DNA of 42,313 nucleotides. It comes from an uncultured delta proteobacterium (GTDB taxonomy: Bacteria > Desulfobacterota > WTBG01 > CAIYCZ01 > CAIRTM01). Shown here in pieces: positions 12,758-19,713 of this stretch; position 1 is the stretch's first letter, and every line of letters begins with the position of its first letter. The notes under the pieces were generated by a model that ran no database searches, had not been told where the DNA came from, and was given only the letters and a program-made list of their open reading frames with translations. Location: the NCBI GenBank assembly GCA_903881505.1, contig CAIRTM010000130.1:1-42313 (forward strand). The letters run 5' to 3'. The translations under genes were made by a program, and so were the position numbers.

Positions 12758-13353
12758 GGCTCCTCCCTCGAAAAAATAGTTAATCTGCTGAGTCGTCCAC
12801 CATAGTGCGTCGTATGCTTCCCTCTTTCGCTTGCTGGATCGTATTTATCTTTCGCTCTCCTTTCTTAAGAATGTTTAATTGCACTAAATTACATCATTTT
12901 TATCCGTTATTGTGCAGGATAAGCAGTATGCGCCAGGTATTTTTTTGCAATAGATGTTTTTTGTTCCGTATTTTTCGTAATCATAAAATTTCAATTAATG
13001 TACTTATTATACTGATTGGTATAATATTGCAAGAAAAAAGTTTACTAGCCGGTCGGTATAATCAATTAGTTCTGGCCTGTATCTCTGACATCGAAACACC
13101 TGATGCACGCCGGCAGGTCAGCGAAGATTTTTCTTCGTTTGTTCATTGTTGCATTTCAGTTTTTTTGAGTGCAGTATTATTTCTTTTGCGCCAATGGCAA
13201 TCCGTAAAAAAAGAATAACATTAACCCGGTCCTGTTGCCGGCATACCCTCTGCGGGAGTTGTCGGCGGTTTTTGGATTGCCGGGACATGCGGGATAAGGT
13301 AGAAAAAGCAGTACGCACTCCACGATCAGAATCCTTAAGGGGCGCTGCAGTAT
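12758..13353. other. AT-rich intergenic region without a convincing gene
   Basis: About 600 bases between the divergent hydrolase and CULT genes. The part 12830–13230 is markedly richer in A and T than the flanks. A 137-codon open frame at 12805–13218 has no ribosome site, an odd composition and no recognisable motif, so I do not call it. The region probably holds the promoters for both neighbours; see the inverted repeat at 13006–13025. The shift in composition could also mark an old insertion. Confidence 0.6.
13006..13025. promoter_or_regulatory. Inverted repeat carrying divergent -10-like boxes
   Basis: ATTATAC-N6-GTATAAT is a perfect 7-base inverted repeat, so it presents TATAAT on both strands. 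A further TATAAT follows at 13057–13062 on the plus strand, preceded by ACTAGCCGGTCGGT (13044–13057), which vaguely resembles a TetR-family operator. On the minus strand a weak -35 (CTTGCA, 13028–13033) lies 16 bases away. It may be a shared promoter/operator for the divergent genes. Confidence 0.4.
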
Positions 13354-13767
13354 ATGGCCTGCACCGGCACTGTATTTTTTTTGCGACGAATGCAATATGA
13401 GAGGCCGCGCCCGGGCAGGCGGCCGGCAGACCAGCCGGGGCAAAGCGATATTTCCGGCGGGGATCAGATTGTGTGCTGCTGCTGCGGCCGGATTATAACA
13501 TCGTCCGGCCAGCGCATTGAAGTCAACGGCTCGCACGAACATACCTTCGCGAACCCTGAAGGCATCGTGTTCCATATCGCCTGTTTTGCCCGCGTTCAGG
13601 GCTGCCTGTTCGCGGGAGAGCCGACCGGGGATTGGACCTGGTTCCGGGGCTACCTGTGGAGCGTCGCCTACTGCGCCGGGTGCGGGTCGCACCTTGGCTG
13701 GAGCTACAGCTCGGGCGATGGTGTTTTTTACGGGCTGGTTCTGCGCAGCATCAGCATCGTCACATAG
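13354..13767 (+). CDS. Cereblon-like CULT domain protein
   Basis: A 137-residue protein whose residues 38–137 form a CULT domain, the fold that binds thalidomide in human cereblon. Zinc cysteines C41/C44 and C107/C110 are two CxxC pairs. The ligand cage is complete: W96, W102, W116 and Y118. The intervals (6, 14 and 2) equal those of human CRBN W380, W386, W400 and F402, and Tyr at the last place is as I recall for the bacterial protein MsCI4. The GSHEHTFANPEGIVFHIACF and TWF.GY.W segments are typical. The first 30 residues are poorly defined and the start may be ATG 13390; no strong ribosome site favours either. The natural bacterial ligand of this family is uncertain. Confidence 0.88.
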   Translation: MACTGTVFFLRRMQYERPRPGRRPADQPGQSDISGGDQIVCCCCGRIITSSGQRIEVNGSHEHTFANPEGIVFHIACFARVQGCLFAGEPTGDWTWFRGYLWSVAYCAGCGSHLGWSYSSGDGVFYGLVLRSISIVT

Positions 13768-13917
13768 CATTCCACGGTTGACCACTCCCCGCCTGTTAAA
13801 ATAGTATCGCTGTGCAGGGCAGGTTTTTTGCATTGTCCGCCCGGGAGGGTTGTGATAGAGCTGTACATCTCGAACGAACGCGGCGGGGCTGGATACCTGT
13901 GATACGGGTTTGGATCT

Positions 13918-16137
13918 ATGAACATATTTAAAAGAGCAGGTTGCGCCGTGCTGCTGATCGCGCTGGCTGCCGGTGCGGCGGTTGTCGTTTCAGCGCGCCT
14001 GTGCATGACCCCTGGGAACGTCATGAGCTCCATGCAGGACGCGCTGGAACTGCAGCTTGGCGCGCGCATGACTTGCGGAGCGCTCGATGTGCGCCCGCTG
14101 TCGGGTTGTGTGCTCAGGGATGTGCAATTGTTTGAAACACGCACTGACAGCGCGGAGCCGTTCCTGCGCTGCAAAGAGGTGCGGCTCACGCACAGCCTGC
14201 TGCCGCTGCTTCTGAAAAAACTCCTGATACGCGATATCGCCGTTGTTGATCCTGTTATGACGTTCACGGTTCGGCAGCGCCGATTTTCCTCGCGAACGGA
14301 TGGAACTCCGCCCCTGCAGGTGAGCCTTATGCCGCGCTCCCTGCATGTGAGCGGCGGCCGTGTGCTGTTTGATGCCCCGTATGGTCCGATGGGGCTTGAA
14401 GATATCGAGTGCGACGCGCAGGGCATATCTTTTTTGCATTCCGCGCCGGTTACTCTTGCCGCCCGGATCATCGGCGACCCCCGAGCTGAGGTGAGCGGCA
14501 GCGGCAGGTATGCGCTTGCCCGCCGGTCGCTGACGCTTGAAATTGTCTGCAGGGGAGCTTCCCTTGCATACTTCAAGGAACATTTAAGTTCCGCAGGCAT
14601 CCCGCTGGTTTCCGGCCTTGTTTCTATCCAGACGGCCATTGAAGCAAAGGGAGATACGATCGGGCTGCAGCTCGCGTGCGGGCTGCGTGACGGCGGCCTG
14701 GCCACGTCTGCATCGGCGGATGCGCAGGAGGAATTTCTTGCGATGGAGGGTTTGCATGCTGAAGCTCAGTTCAATGCCTCCTGGGACATGCGCACAGGAA
14801 CGTGTGAAATTACAGGTATTTCCGGCAAACTCCTCTCAGCTCCCTTCAGAGGCAGGGTAGCGCTGCGCAGCACTCCTGCCGGCACCCGGATCAGAGGCAT
14901 GCTGGATGTCCCTGAAATGCGCGCGGATGAGTTTTTCGCGCATTGTACGCGCCTGCCGGCTTTTATCCCGACGGGCCTTCGCCTTGAGGGAACACTGGGC
15001 GTGCGCATGGAAATTGATGGCATGCCAGGCGCCTTCGATCTGTTTCCGTCCCTGCTGCTGCAGTTTCATGACACCAGGGTGTGCTATCCCGCGCTTGCCC
15101 GTCTGCAGCCCAGCCTGAACGGAACCGTCACGCTTGATGCCGACCGCATGTCAAGCGACGCCCTGAAAATAGGAACCGATGACCTGTGGATTTCGCTGGC
15201 AGGCGATGTGAGCGGATACCGCACGCAGGCCCCGCGCGCTGATTTGCGAGTCGTTTCGTCCTGCATGAACCTGCCCGGACTGTTTACCCCGGATGAGGAT
15301 GCCGGCACAGAGCCGATCGGTCCCCTGGATTTTGGTGCGCTGCAATTACAGGGGCCTGTTGACCTGGGAACGGTCTATTTCCTCGGCATGAAGCTGGGCG
15401 GCGTGCAGGGGAGTTACCGCTTTGAGCGCAATGTGTTCGAGATCCGTGATCTGCGCGGCACGGTTGAAGACGGTCGCTTTACCGCCGGTCTGAGTGTTGA
15501 TTTGGGCGTGCAGGGCCTGGCCTACAGCGCCCGGGTCGATGTTGACGCCGTACCGCTCAGCGAGGCCCTGCAGCTGGTGCCCGGCGATGCGAAGCAGCAC
15601 ATCAGCGGCGCTCTTTATGCTTCATTGAAATTCGCCGGCACAGGCAGCGACCATGCGGACTGCATGCGCAACCTGACGGCGCGAGGCGATCTCCGCCTTG
15701 GTAATGCTGCCGTAAACCTGGCCGGGATGTTGCCGCAGCTGGCAGACGCAGTTAAAAACCCGATGCTGGAACGCGTCAGCTTTGACAGCGCCGGTCTGCA
15801 GCTTGACCTGCGCAAGGGGACCGTGCGGGTGTCGGGTGCCTTCACAGGTCCGGATATCTGCCTGTACCCGGAGGGCAGTATCGGACTTGACGGCAGCCTT
15901 GACCTTGATGTGCCTCTGTATATATCACCTGTGCTGCTGACCGGCAGCGAAGACCTGCCGGCCTGCCTGCCGCGCGAGAAGGGTCTGGCCCTTGTGCCGA
16001 TTGATGTTCTGGGAACCTTCACCGAACCTCGGTTCGAGATAAGCCGCGAAACACTCGGCTGTATCATCGGCGAGGCGCTCAGCAGCATTGCTCGTGAATC
16101 ACTTTCTGCGGCCGTGGAGGCTCAGCCCGGGGGCTGA
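13918..16137 (+). CDS. AsmA-like membrane-anchored protein
   Basis: A 739-residue protein with one N-terminal membrane anchor (about residues 5–27) and a very long periplasmic part built of repeating amphipathic beta-strands. An AsmA-N-like start (VRPLSGCVLRDVQLFE, then VRLTHSLLPLLLKKLLIRDIAVVDP) and a C-terminal AsmA_2-like part (about 560–690, with GDLRLGNAAVNLAG) point to the AsmA/TamB/YhdP superfamily, thought to carry phospholipids between the two membranes. The ATG has only a weak ribosome site (TTGGATCT). The gene lies 150 bases after the CULT gene with no obvious promoter between, so co-transcription is possible. The assignment is by overall pattern, not by an exact motif. Confidence 0.72.
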   Translation: MNIFKRAGCAVLLIALAAGAAVVVSARLCMTPGNVMSSMQDALELQLGARMTCGALDVRPLSGCVLRDVQLFETRTDSAEPFLRCKEVRLTHSLLPLLLKKLLIRDIAVVDPVMTFTVRQRRFSSRTDGTPPLQVSLMPRSLHVSGGRVLFDAPYGPMGLEDIECDAQGISFLHSAPVTLAARIIGDPRAEVSGSGRYALARRSLTLEIVCRGASLAYFKEHLSSAGIPLVSGLVSIQTAIEAKGDTIGLQLACGLRDGGLATSASADAQEEFLAMEGLHAEAQFNASWDMRTGTCEITGISGKLLSAPFRGRVALRSTPAGTRIRGMLDVPEMRADEFFAHCTRLPAFIPTGLRLEGTLGVRMEIDGMPGAFDLFPSLLLQFHDTRVCYPALARLQPSLNGTVTLDADRMSSDALKIGTDDLWISLAGDVSGYRTQAPRADLRVVSSCMNLPGLFTPDEDAGTEPIGPLDFGALQLQGPVDLGTVYFLGMKLGGVQGSYRFERNVFEIRDLRGTVEDGRFTAGLSVDLGVQGLAYSARVDVDAVPLSEALQLVPGDAKQHISGALYASLKFAGTGSDHADCMRNLTARGDLRLGNAAVNLAGMLPQLADAVKNPMLERVSFDSAGLQLDLRKGTVRVSGAFTGPDICLYPEGSIGLDGSLDLDVPLYISPVLLTGSEDLPACLPREKGLALVPIDVLGTFTEPRFEISRETLGCIIGEALSSIARESLSAAVEAQPGG

Positions 16138-16144
16138 AACCGTC

Positions 16145-16180
16145 ATGGGCGGCTGCACCACCGCATTCATGCCCGTTTTT
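16145..16180 (+). terminator. Possible terminator after the AsmA-like gene
   Basis: ATGGGC (16145–16150) pairs with GCCCGT (16171–16176), with an inner GCGG/CCGC pairing possible, followed by TTTTTCTTTT. The loop is long, so the call is moderate. It lies directly behind the stop codon at 16137. Confidence 0.45.
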
Positions 16181-16431
16181 CTTTTACATTCTCCTTCCCT
16201 TGGTCAAGACATGCTTTATATATGGTTTTTCAGAGTAGAGGCGTTTTTTAACCTGCCTTTGTTATAAACCATATTTTACGAAGGCTATCTTTTAATAAAT
16301 CTATAAATACCAGTTTTTGGCAGGTATTAGTAAGGTGTTTTTCAGGTATTGCCTTTCGATGCTCATTTCGGTTATATTTCAAAAATATTTAAAACCTGAT
16401 GTTTTTGTGCTGTGTGTCCTGCGGTCAGGGG

Positions 16432-16606
16432 GGATGAAGAGAGATGCTTTGTGCTCATCCTTGACAAAGCCGATTCATCCATAACTGTTTGTACATCCGG
16501 AGAGAAACGTCCGGCACTGTAGAAAGGGGGTAAGCTGAAGCCCTCCGTGTGTACTTCAGGAAAAAGGGGGTTCATCGATCACCATTTTACGACAGGAGAA
16601 AGAGCA
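16432..16606 (+). other. Structured leader region of the crystallin-hydrolase gene
   Basis: The 175 bases before the gene can fold several times. A long stem has outer arms GGATGAA (16432–16438) with TTCATCC (16474–16480) and inner arms GCTTTGT (16446–16452) with ACAAAGC (16464–16470). It is followed by CCGGA...TCCGG near 16497–16515 and GGGGG...CCCTCC further on. I compared it by eye with the c-di-GMP-I riboswitch and found no convincing match. It may be a structured mRNA leader or protein binding site. The region before it (16181–16431) is AT-rich and holds no gene. Confidence 0.4.
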
Positions 16607-17941
16607 ATGAAAAGAAGTCTTTTAGCGCTTATTGTTTCACTTGCTTTTATCATAACGGGCTCAATGGCCTTTGCTTCGGCTCCGCCGCCAAAACCGCCGG
16701 CAGCGCCCACGACGGGCTTTGGATCGCCCCAGAATTATATCTGCAACAGCCTCTACAATGGCGCCCCGATTGATCATAACAATTGCATAGATTTCGGCAA
16801 TACGGATGCGGGTGAGCGCTGCTGGGTCTATATCCCATCGGTGCTGAAAAACGGAACAACGGCGCCTGTCGTCATTTACCTGCATGGCATGTTCGCCCTG
16901 GTTCCCCCGATTTACGGCCCTCAGATCGAACACCTGGTGCGTCAGGGCTATATCGTCATTTTCCCCGAGTACAACAAGGGCGGCTTCGACGGCATGTTCA
17001 ACGACAGCAATCAGTACGAGCAGCTTGCCCGTGCTGTCAACGCGGTTGACCAGGCGCTGGCGCTTCCGGATGTCGCCGCGCGCGCGGAACTGAATAATAT
17101 CTTCCTTGCCTCCCACTCCAACGGCGGCAACCTGAGCATGGGCTGGATCGCCAACGGCGGCGTGCCCGTTAAGGCCATGATCATGCAGCATCCCTGCATT
17201 TCCAACGAAGCGATTCCTGCGTTTGTGCGCACTCTGTTCCTGGGCGATATGATTGAGATAGACGCCGCAGCCCACGGCCCGGCCATCACCTGCCCGGTGA
17301 TAGTCGTCGGCGGCGTGAAGGATACCATCGCCAAGCCCGTGCAGCTCAACCAGATCATGAGCTACCTGCCCAATGCAGCGACCAAGGTGCAGTATATGTA
17401 CGATGAAGACACCTATGGAGACCCGGATCTCGAGGCCGACCATGTCGTACCCTGCCAGGATGACGGCGTCCTGCCGGGCTGGCTGCTGGACCTCATGGCC
17501 AGCATGGGCTTCAGCGCCTTCGAGGAAAATTCGGATGACTATCGGATTCATTTTGCCGCCGTCGACGCTGCCCTGGCCGGCCTGACCCGCGTGCCCTTTG
17601 ACCGCGGCAAGTGGAGCGACGGCAGGGCGGTAAACCCGGTTGTGAAAGTCTATGATCCGGACATCGCCGGTGTGATGCTCTATGAGCACTGCGATTACAA
17701 TGCCGGCATCACCGGGGCGTATGCCGTTCAGCTGACCAAGGGCGTCTACAATCTCGGCGGCCTTGCGGCCCGCGGCTTTTCAAACGACAGCCTGTCATCG
17801 ATCAAGATCCCTTCAGGCTGGAAGGTGACCCTCTACAAGGATGACAATTTCAGCGGAACCACCAAGGTACTCTACGGCAACAACAGCTGCCTGACCGGCA
17901 TCGGGTTCAATGATGTCGTTTCTTCCATAAAGGTCGAATAG
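16607..17941 (+). CDS. Secreted alpha/beta hydrolase with C-terminal betagamma-crystallin domain
   Basis: A 444-residue protein with a clear signal peptide (about 1–25, ending AFASA) followed by a proline-rich linker. The hydrolase domain (about 60–340) has VVIYLHGM as oxyanion region and S171 as nucleophile in ASHSNGG; the first Gly of the usual GxSxG is Ser here. The C-terminal part (about 350–444) shows two copies of the betagamma-crystallin calcium motif (N/D)(N/D)xxSS: N393–S398 (NDSLSS) and N435–S440 (NDVVSS), with the typical VTLYKDDNFSG strand. Such domains bind calcium and stabilise secreted proteins. ATG 16607 has AGGAG upstream; the longer frame from 16547 would bury the signal peptide. 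It is followed by a strong terminator. Confidence 0.87.
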   Translation: MKRSLLALIVSLAFIITGSMAFASAPPPKPPAAPTTGFGSPQNYICNSLYNGAPIDHNNCIDFGNTDAGERCWVYIPSVLKNGTTAPVVIYLHGMFALVPPIYGPQIEHLVRQGYIVIFPEYNKGGFDGMFNDSNQYEQLARAVNAVDQALALPDVAARAELNNIFLASHSNGGNLSMGWIANGGVPVKAMIMQHPCISNEAIPAFVRTLFLGDMIEIDAAAHGPAITCPVIVVGGVKDTIAKPVQLNQIMSYLPNAATKVQYMYDEDTYGDPDLEADHVVPCQDDGVLPGWLLDLMASMGFSAFEENSDDYRIHFAAVDAALAGLTRVPFDRGKWSDGRAVNPVVKVYDPDIAGVMLYEHCDYNAGITGAYAVQLTKGVYNLGGLAARGFSNDSLSSIKIPSGWKVTLYKDDNFSGTTKVLYGNNSCLTGIGFNDVVSSIKVE

Positions 17942-17962
17942 CACCGCACGCAGCGCACAGCG

Positions 17963-18002
17963 AAAGGGTGCCGGGACGCGATGAACCGGCGCCCTTTTTT
18001 TA
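17963..18002 (+). terminator. Rho-independent terminator after the crystallin-hydrolase gene
   Basis: A GC-rich stem, AAAGGGTGCCGG (17963–17974) with CCGGCGCCCTTT (17986–17997), including one G-T pair, ends in a run of seven T (17995–18001). It lies 22 bases after the stop codon. Confidence 0.9.
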
Positions 18003-18102
18003 TACCTGTCCCGTTAAATTTCTTGCCAATTGCAGCCGGCAATTGTATGTCAAATGACTGGCTGTGTGATATCCCGCTATCCGATCAGACCTGGTATCTT
18101 GG

Positions 18103-19677
18103 ATGTGCTCCATGCGCCGCAGAAAAGAAAAGAACATCCTAAAGCCTGTCGCCGTGCCGAAGATGCCGCTGCTGCGGCAAATGGTGTTGACCGTCGCAGC
18201 GGCTCTGCTGTGCACTGCAGCGTTTCCATCGCTTGAGCTGTGGCCCTGCGCATGGTTCTGTCTTGTCCCGTTCCTGGTTGCACTTGACGGCTCCGGGCTG
18301 CGCGCCTCTTGTGCCTGCGGTGTTCTTTTCGGATTTCTCCACATGCTCGGCCTTGCCTGGTGGGTCTCCAGTGCGCTCTATGTTTACGGGGGAACAGGGC
18401 TTGTGGTAAGCATGCTGTTCGTGATTGTCATCATGGGGCTGCTCGGGCTGTATTATGGCCTGTTTGCCATGAGCGCTTCGGCAATCCTGCGGTCCGGGCT
18501 CGCCTGGTACGCCAAACCGCTCGGTTGTGCGGCCGCCTGGGTGTGCATGGAATATGCGCGCGCCCGCCTTTTTTCAGGTGTGCCCTGGGAACTGCTGGGC
18601 TACAGCCAGTACCGTGTGCTCCCGCTGATACAGGTTGCCGACATCACGGGTGTGTATGGCCTTTCGTTTCTGCTTGTGTTCGCCAACGGCTGCCTGTACC
18701 AGGCCTGCAGGGAGCTGCCGGCGGCGGTCACAGCCCTGCGCAGGCTTGCGCCGGCGCTTGCCATGGTGGCCATTGTGCTGCTCTATGGTTTTGTCCTGCT
18801 CGGCCGGTATCCGGCGGCGGCTGAAAGCGCGGATGGGCCCGGGATTGGTATTGTTCAGTGCAGTTTTCTTCAGGATGAGCGCTGGCGCGAGGACACGCAG
18901 GCAGTGCAGCTCGCACGCTATTGTGCCTTTACGGATGAGGCCTGCCGCAAGGGTGCGCGACTGATAGTATGGCCTGAAGCAGCCCTGCAGTCGTATCTTC
19001 AGGAGCACATTCCGCCAGAGATCATCGAATTGCTGGCCAGATATGACGCCATGCTTGTTCTTGGCGGGCCGCGGTATGCAGGCCGGCCGGGCGCCTATAC
19101 ATTTTATAATTCCGTTTTTTTGCTGACCGGCAGCGGCATCGCGCAGGTGCATGATAAATTGCACCTGCTGCCGTTCGGCGAATATTTTCCTCTCAATTGG
19201 GTTGATGTCCTGCGCACGGGCTATGCCGGCCCCCGTCAGTATTCGGGAGGCCGTCATTACACTGTGCTGCGCACCCCGGCAGGCATGCTCGGAACCCCTG
19301 TCTGCTTTGAAATCGCGTTTCCTGAGATTGCCCGTGATTTCGTCAAAAACGGGGCCGATGTGCTTGTGACCGTCTCAAACGATGCCTGGTTCGGGCGCTC
19401 AAGCGCCCATTATCAGCATTTCAGCATGGCTGTGCTGCGGGCTGTTGAACTGCGCCGTCCTGTGCTGCGATCGGCAAATACCGGCATATCGGGCCATATC
19501 GACAGGGCCGGCCGCGTCCTGTGCAGGCTTGAGCCCTTTCAGGAGGGGCTGGTCCTGACAAGCGCCCTGCCCGGAACAGGCGAAACGTTTTACTGCCGGT
19601 ATGGCGATGCGTTTGCCGGGTTTTGCCTGGCGGTGCTTCTGTGCTGTCTGGCCGCTTCAATGCGCCGGCTTTCCTGA
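18103..19677 (+). CDS. lnt: Apolipoprotein N-acyltransferase
   Basis: Adds the third acyl chain to lipoproteins in the inner membrane, which marks a diderm cell. The 524 residues contain an N-terminal block of about six membrane segments (about 25–240), a periplasmic nitrilase-type domain (about 245–490) and a final membrane segment. The catalytic triad is present as E292 (VWPEAAL), K352 (DKLHLLPFGEY) and C401 (VCFE). Start is either ATG 18103 or ATG 18112; neither has a strong ribosome site and the N-terminus is variable in the family. The terminator before it shows that it begins its own transcript. Confidence 0.95.
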   Translation: MCSMRRRKEKNILKPVAVPKMPLLRQMVLTVAAALLCTAAFPSLELWPCAWFCLVPFLVALDGSGLRASCACGVLFGFLHMLGLAWWVSSALYVYGGTGLVVSMLFVIVIMGLLGLYYGLFAMSASAILRSGLAWYAKPLGCAAAWVCMEYARARLFSGVPWELLGYSQYRVLPLIQVADITGVYGLSFLLVFANGCLYQACRELPAAVTALRRLAPALAMVAIVLLYGFVLLGRYPAAAESADGPGIGIVQCSFLQDERWREDTQAVQLARYCAFTDEACRKGARLIVWPEAALQSYLQEHIPPEIIELLARYDAMLVLGGPRYAGRPGAYTFYNSVFLLTGSGIAQVHDKLHLLPFGEYFPLNWVDVLRTGYAGPRQYSGGRHYTVLRTPAGMLGTPVCFEIAFPEIARDFVKNGADVLVTVSNDAWFGRSSAHYQHFSMAVLRAVELRRPVLRSANTGISGHIDRAGRVLCRLEPFQEGLVLTSALPGTGETFYCRYGDAFAGFCLAVLLCCLAASMRRLS

Positions 19678-19713
19678 TATGCATGCGCACGGGCTGGCGC
19701 TACATAAATTTGC

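Follow-up and report, generated by a model that had tools for sequence, protein, structure and literature searches.

What does a cereblon-type protein do in a bacterium? The question has stood since bacterial CULT domain proteins became a crystallographic stand-in for cereblon, and an earlier note on the DNA studied here was correct to call their natural role open. That DNA, referred to below as the window, is a 42,313-nucleotide stretch from an uncultured delta proteobacterium. Its CULT gene (13354 to 13767, plus strand) encodes 137 amino acids from an ATG start, and the protein has a single CULT domain (residues ~37 to 136) behind an N-terminal tail of about 36 residues that is disordered in the AlphaFold model. 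A possible ribosome binding site, AAGGGG, was read by eye at 13337 to 13342 on the same strand, 11 nt before the ATG.

In a phmmer search of the PDB, the window protein matched Magnetospirillum MsCI4 best (E = 4.7e-25, residues 34 to 130), and vertebrate cereblon matched at 2e-10 to 2e-8. In the AlphaFold2 model, built from 14 sequences, every residue from 41 onward had a pLDDT of more than 90. Foldseek aligned MsCI4 structures to this model with an rmsd of 1.0 to 1.5 Å and a TM score of about 0.9 by target (for example 6r0q_A, with an rmsd of 1.0 Å and a TM score of 0.93 by target), human CRBN came next, and the model superposes on ligand-bound MsCI4. By the model and these matches to MsCI4 and CRBN, the protein has the beta-tent fold that is a criterion of the CULT family. 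None of the NCBIfam models matched it. Membership in Yippee/Mis18 (PF03226), a family of related beta-tent fold, was rejected, with a weak match of 21.8 bits lying below the gathering score of 26.6 and the full CULT cage pattern being present. A cereblon-type architecture was also rejected, as the 137-residue ORF has no N-terminal LON domain and no other domain was found in it. A DDB1/Cul4 ligase is not to be expected in a bacterial genome.

We aligned the window protein with MsCI4, human CRBN, and 38 homologues. Because the invariant columns recur in the 38 homologues, chance similarity is excluded. There are 13 such columns, and the window protein keeps every invariant residue. It also has the features by which CULT domains are recognized, namely, two CxxC zinc motifs, three cage tryptophans, and NPxG. 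The first zinc pair, C41-x-x-C44 (run CCCC; 13474 to 13485, plus strand, as are all residues below), is invariant in 39 of 39 sequences and corresponds to human C323/C326; the second, C107-x-x-C110 (13672 to 13683), corresponds to C391/C394. The cage consists of W96 and W102 (13639 to 13659; human W380 and W386) and W116 and Y118 (13699 to 13707; human W400 and F402, MsCI4 Y101). At the tip of an inserted hairpin lies NPEG (residues 67 to 70; 13552 to 13563), equivalent to human NPHG 351 to 354 and to the NPxG motif of CULT domains described in PMC4449219. The claim that the aromatic cage and the four zinc cysteines are complete was thus borne out in the alignment. That their intervals are exactly those of human cereblon was true from W96 to Y118 (W96-W102-C107-C110-W116-118) but not for the first CxxC, which is two residues nearer the cage: C44 to W96 spans 52 residues, versus 54 in the human protein, with single-residue gaps at human positions 330 and 342.

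The ORF is, as the earlier note had claimed, a genuine bacterial CULT protein, upheld by the phmmer matches, the alignment, the AlphaFold model, and Foldseek, and it consists of one domain. Among the bacterial CULT proteins already known, it is complete and ordinary. In group I of Lupas et al. (2015), found mainly in delta-proteobacteria, the whole protein is the CULT domain, as here; the accessible text of that paper describes no gene neighborhood for group I, and the word "operon" does not occur in it. MsCI4 (MGR_0879, "cereblon isoform 4" of Magnetospirillum gryphiswaldense) is likewise a single CULT domain. About 37% identical to the window protein in the structural alignment, it shares the cage (W79, W85, W99, Y101), the zinc cysteines, NPxG, and the hairpin HxH, whereas the window protein has a longer N-terminal tail, which carries the sequence FFLR, and one additional cysteine, C84. 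Fold, cage tryptophans, zinc pairs, and NPxG are also common to the thalidomide-binding domain of human and other vertebrate cereblons, but the window protein lacks the LON domain and the DDB1-binding region and has tyrosine in place of F402.

What might this cage bind? According to the MsCI4 papers (PMC4287342, PMC4449219), that protein binds thalidomide and uridine, and in PMC4449219 also deoxyuridine, folding on binding. Since MsCI4 does so with the same cage, glutarimide or uracil binding by the window protein is fair to infer, and by this analogy it very probably binds an imide or uracil ring. The physiological ligand could, at close to an even chance, be the C-terminal cyclic imide of proteins. 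According to work cited in PMC13001092, this structure is the natural degron of cereblon and is made in human cells by PCMT1. A different reading is that the cage is a pyrimidine or uridine sensor that takes up free uridine, uracil, or deoxyuridine, with folding upon binding as the switch by which it would regulate a partner in metabolism or in DNA uracil damage. Uridine and deoxyuridine do enter the same cage in MsCI4, which becomes structured on binding (structure 4v31), but no pyrimidine gene recurs as a neighbor of CULT genes, and the dihydrouridine synthase adjoining CULT in genome G196 is a single case. We regard such a sensor as unlikely.

The residues around the hairpin differ between CULT groups. 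H61-x-H63 (13534 to 13542) lies in the inserted hairpin, and these two histidines, with C77 and C84 (13582 to 13605), lie around this flexible hairpin as a possible second site; the human counterparts of H61, H63, C77, and C84 are P345, A347, T361, and L368. H63 is invariant in all bacterial CULT homologues. H61 and C77, often with C84, occur together in most proteins of the window type, and H61 and C77 are lost in a divergent clade linked to Lon proteases (described below), which has x-H-T-A/V at the four positions. The four residues could be the ligands of a second metal, or they could act as a redox switch for opening the cage. The invariance of H63 and the pairing of H61 with C77 would fit this, but the pattern runs by clade and may be one event, MsCI4 lacks C84, and the accessible text of its papers reports no second site; we give the idea only a slight chance. 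In the tail, some 30 residues ahead of the first zinc cysteine, lies FFLR (residues 8 to 11; 13375 to 13386). A motif of the form [hydrophobic][F/L][R/K], a pattern chosen post hoc, was found in this N-terminal region in 12 of 31 window-type proteins, versus 3.1 in shuffles; a de novo 6-residue motif was discarded as mainly start methionine signal. Full-length cereblon has a short N-terminal extension that packs along these same flexible regions (PMC4449219), and by analogy the motif could serve as a peptide for self-docking or for docking to a partner. Neither the hairpin histidine/cysteine pattern nor the N-terminal motif appears in the accessible portions of published accounts of CULT.

We looked for CULT across 395 genomes of the phylum and one order of 85 genomes. 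It was present in 39 of the 395 (about 10%), in 11 of 17 genomes of the window's class, and in 10 of 11 genomes of its order, where it spans nine genera. This retention and the 13 invariant columns together indicate that the gene is under selection. A single-sequence search of genome contigs with the window protein found one relative only. Searches of plasmids (72,556 records) and phages (50,697 records) at the sensitivity used, and of IMG/VR contigs with the patterns used, turned up no CULT, and mobile spread was rejected. The gene could be a dispensable orphan that evolves fast and is being lost in the window lineage, its function no longer needed. In line with such loss, G001, the only other genome of the genus and 100% complete, has no CULT and carries other genes at that place, and the end branch of the window protein, 0.78, exceeds the 0.06 to 0.73 of its family mates. 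The frame is intact, however, every invariant residue is kept, and the order retains CULT in all of those nine genera, so that we find this decidedly unlikely.

The earlier note placed CULT between two secreted hydrolases and before an AsmA-like gene. That this neighborhood is informative was not supported: these genes are all missing from the CULT loci of ten related genomes, and in G001 other genes occupy the corresponding place. Between the hydrolase and the DNA polymerase III gene that the two genomes share, G001 has an NtrC-type regulator and a second cupin (product names read from sequence). Set against locus L082 of G001, window positions 12782 to 19703 contain an interval, orf12805-CULT-AsmA-like-hydrolase-Lnt, that is entirely replaced there. 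The hydrolases, the AsmA-like gene, and Lnt were therefore set aside as a functional signal, since they are not conserved among relatives, and no protease was seen among the neighboring genes examined in the window. Just upstream of CULT, positions 12805 to 13218 are a low-GC stretch (about 38%) with a 137-residue ORF without a Pfam match, which may be noncoding or acquired DNA. The secreted alpha/beta hydrolase at 16547 to 17941 has a weak C-terminal beta/gamma-crystallin repeat (PF00030, below the cutoff).

All-against-all clustering of the ORFs at 40 CULT loci yielded family-specific neighbors only, and no Pfam neighbor beyond these was common to all the loci. A CobA-HemD (siroheme/heme) gene lies upstream of CULT in four genomes of family f19 (L045, L048, L060, L061), and three genomes that belong to a single genus have a DksA-like gene beside it. 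Within the family of the window, an alpha/beta hydrolase (Hydrolase_4) lies 2 to 19 bp upstream of CULT on the same strand in G002, G003, G006, and G007, a pairing that spans three genera (L033:1525-2899, L035:8153-9498, L036:9119-10362, L040:8652-9942). CULT might then recruit substrates bearing imides or other rings to the hydrolase of its operon, for repair or clearance and not for proteolysis. This pairing is missing from the window and from G004, G005, and G008, which have no upstream Hydrolase_4, and the window's hydrolases are of another kind, one of them divergently transcribed; we therefore think a hydrolase partnership very unlikely.

The comparison of gene neighborhoods proposed in the earlier note, while negative for the window, gave a lead in another CULT clade. 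In five genomes a divergent CULT adjoins genes for a LonB/LonC-like protease and a protein with a bifunctional nuclease (BFN) domain (L070:9487-12919, L064:9244-13081, L092:3414-6712, L091:1918-5569, L093:4929-8408), across three families and in two gene orders. In G145 and G300, CULT is followed on the same strand by a Lon-like protease of 810 to 830 residues with AAA_32, LonB_AAA-LID, LonC_helical, and Lon_C domains; the BFN gene after it was identified by domain scan in G145, and its homologue is present in G300. Searching the 85 genomes of their order, 8 of which have CULT, added G462, G458, and G459. CULT lies upstream of Lon by 87 bp in G145, 444 bp in G300, and 13 bp in G462, and downstream of BFN in G458 and G459 (Lon-BFN-CULT). 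In G449, a congener of G145, the same metallo-hydrolase-Lon-BFN string recurs but CULT is absent, the Lon gene beginning 10 bp past the hydrolase; CULT is therefore a removable cassette within the operon.

The linked Lon paralog belongs to a high-identity group, 61 to 100% identical to the G145 protein, versus ~40% for the common paralog, and is present in 11 of the 85 genomes of the order and 18 of the 395 of the phylum sample. All eight core genomes of the CULT clade carry it, six within the order and two (G147 and G391) outside, although elsewhere it is rare. Its co-occurrence with CULT had hypergeometric p values of about 1e-6 (order) and 3e-6 (phylum sample), uncorrected for relatedness, and since the Lon-linked genomes are mutually related, their number overstates the independent events. 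BFN homologues accompany the high-identity Lon, and not the common paralogs examined, within the order; in other families there was none within about 1.5 kb of it. Linkage could not be assessed in G391, in which Lon as well as CULT is located at a contig end. The protease also works without CULT, since 14 of the 18 Lon-BFN-type genomes in the phylum sample have none. In the tree the Lon-linked CULTs form a 10-row clade (support 100/99), which also holds two f60 genomes (G318 and G388) without the high-identity Lon and is a subgroup of its own when set beside group I of Lupas et al. (2015). Its members share with human cereblon Thr77 (T361), usually His94 (H378), the FWG end, and a longer preceding loop. 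Common descent may or may not account for this, a tree test of whether human cereblon groups with the clade having given a p-AU of 0.30. We found no report of CULT-Lon linkage in the open-access literature searched, from which most subscription papers are missing.

Does the Lon link apply to the window? Its CULT falls outside the 10-row clade, and a search of its genome at E ≤ 1e-60 found no Lon of the AAA_32 type, which means that this partner does not carry over to it. What may carry over, in line with cereblon, is the idea that a CULT cage recognizes imide ends next to proteolytic machinery. PIMT (PF01135), the bacterial counterpart of PCMT1, is encoded in the genome, but PIMT is nearly universal in the phylum (81 of the 85 genomes of the order, and 38 of 39), so its presence is a prerequisite and not evidence, and CULT-PIMT co-occurrence was dropped as a signal that does not discriminate. 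A second PIMT copy in the window genome (contig C111, 41360 to 41821) has an in-frame TGA.

Our tentative best overall explanation is that the window protein reads imide rings and is probably a receptor for cyclic-imide degrons. It would be a cytosolic, zinc-pinned, single-domain beta-tent whose three tryptophans and tyrosine would cage five- or six-membered imide or uracil-like rings. The cage would recognize damaged proteins by their C-terminal cyclic imides (succinimide or glutarimide), which would arise spontaneously or through PIMT, and CULT would hand these proteins to a protein quality control enzyme, as cereblon does to a ubiquitin ligase. The explanation starts from the observed fold, cage, zinc residues, and PIMT gene and from the Lon-like protease linkage of a related clade; ring binding, the natural ligand, and a partner enzyme other than the Lon-BFN type would complete it. 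That the protein works by delivery to an AAA+ protease is somewhat doubtful, and a protease link for it is something we infer. More speculatively, and with greater doubt, bacterial CULTs in general would be degron receptors that pass cyclic-imide proteins to an AAA+ protease, one clade having a dedicated, adjacent LonB/LonC-like enzyme. If so, cereblon, with its LON-CULT architecture, would carry on an ancient association between CULT and Lon-type proteolysis, and the partner of the window protein would be a different, unlinked one.

The Lon-protease lead raises the interest of the window protein even though it comes from another clade. Lon adjacency in that clade suggests that bacterial CULTs mark damaged proteins for destruction, and the linkage offers a concrete, cheap test of whether cyclic imides were being read for proteolysis before the eukaryotic ubiquitin ligase arose. 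If confirmed, it might provide a way of controlling protein degradation in bacteria through imides.
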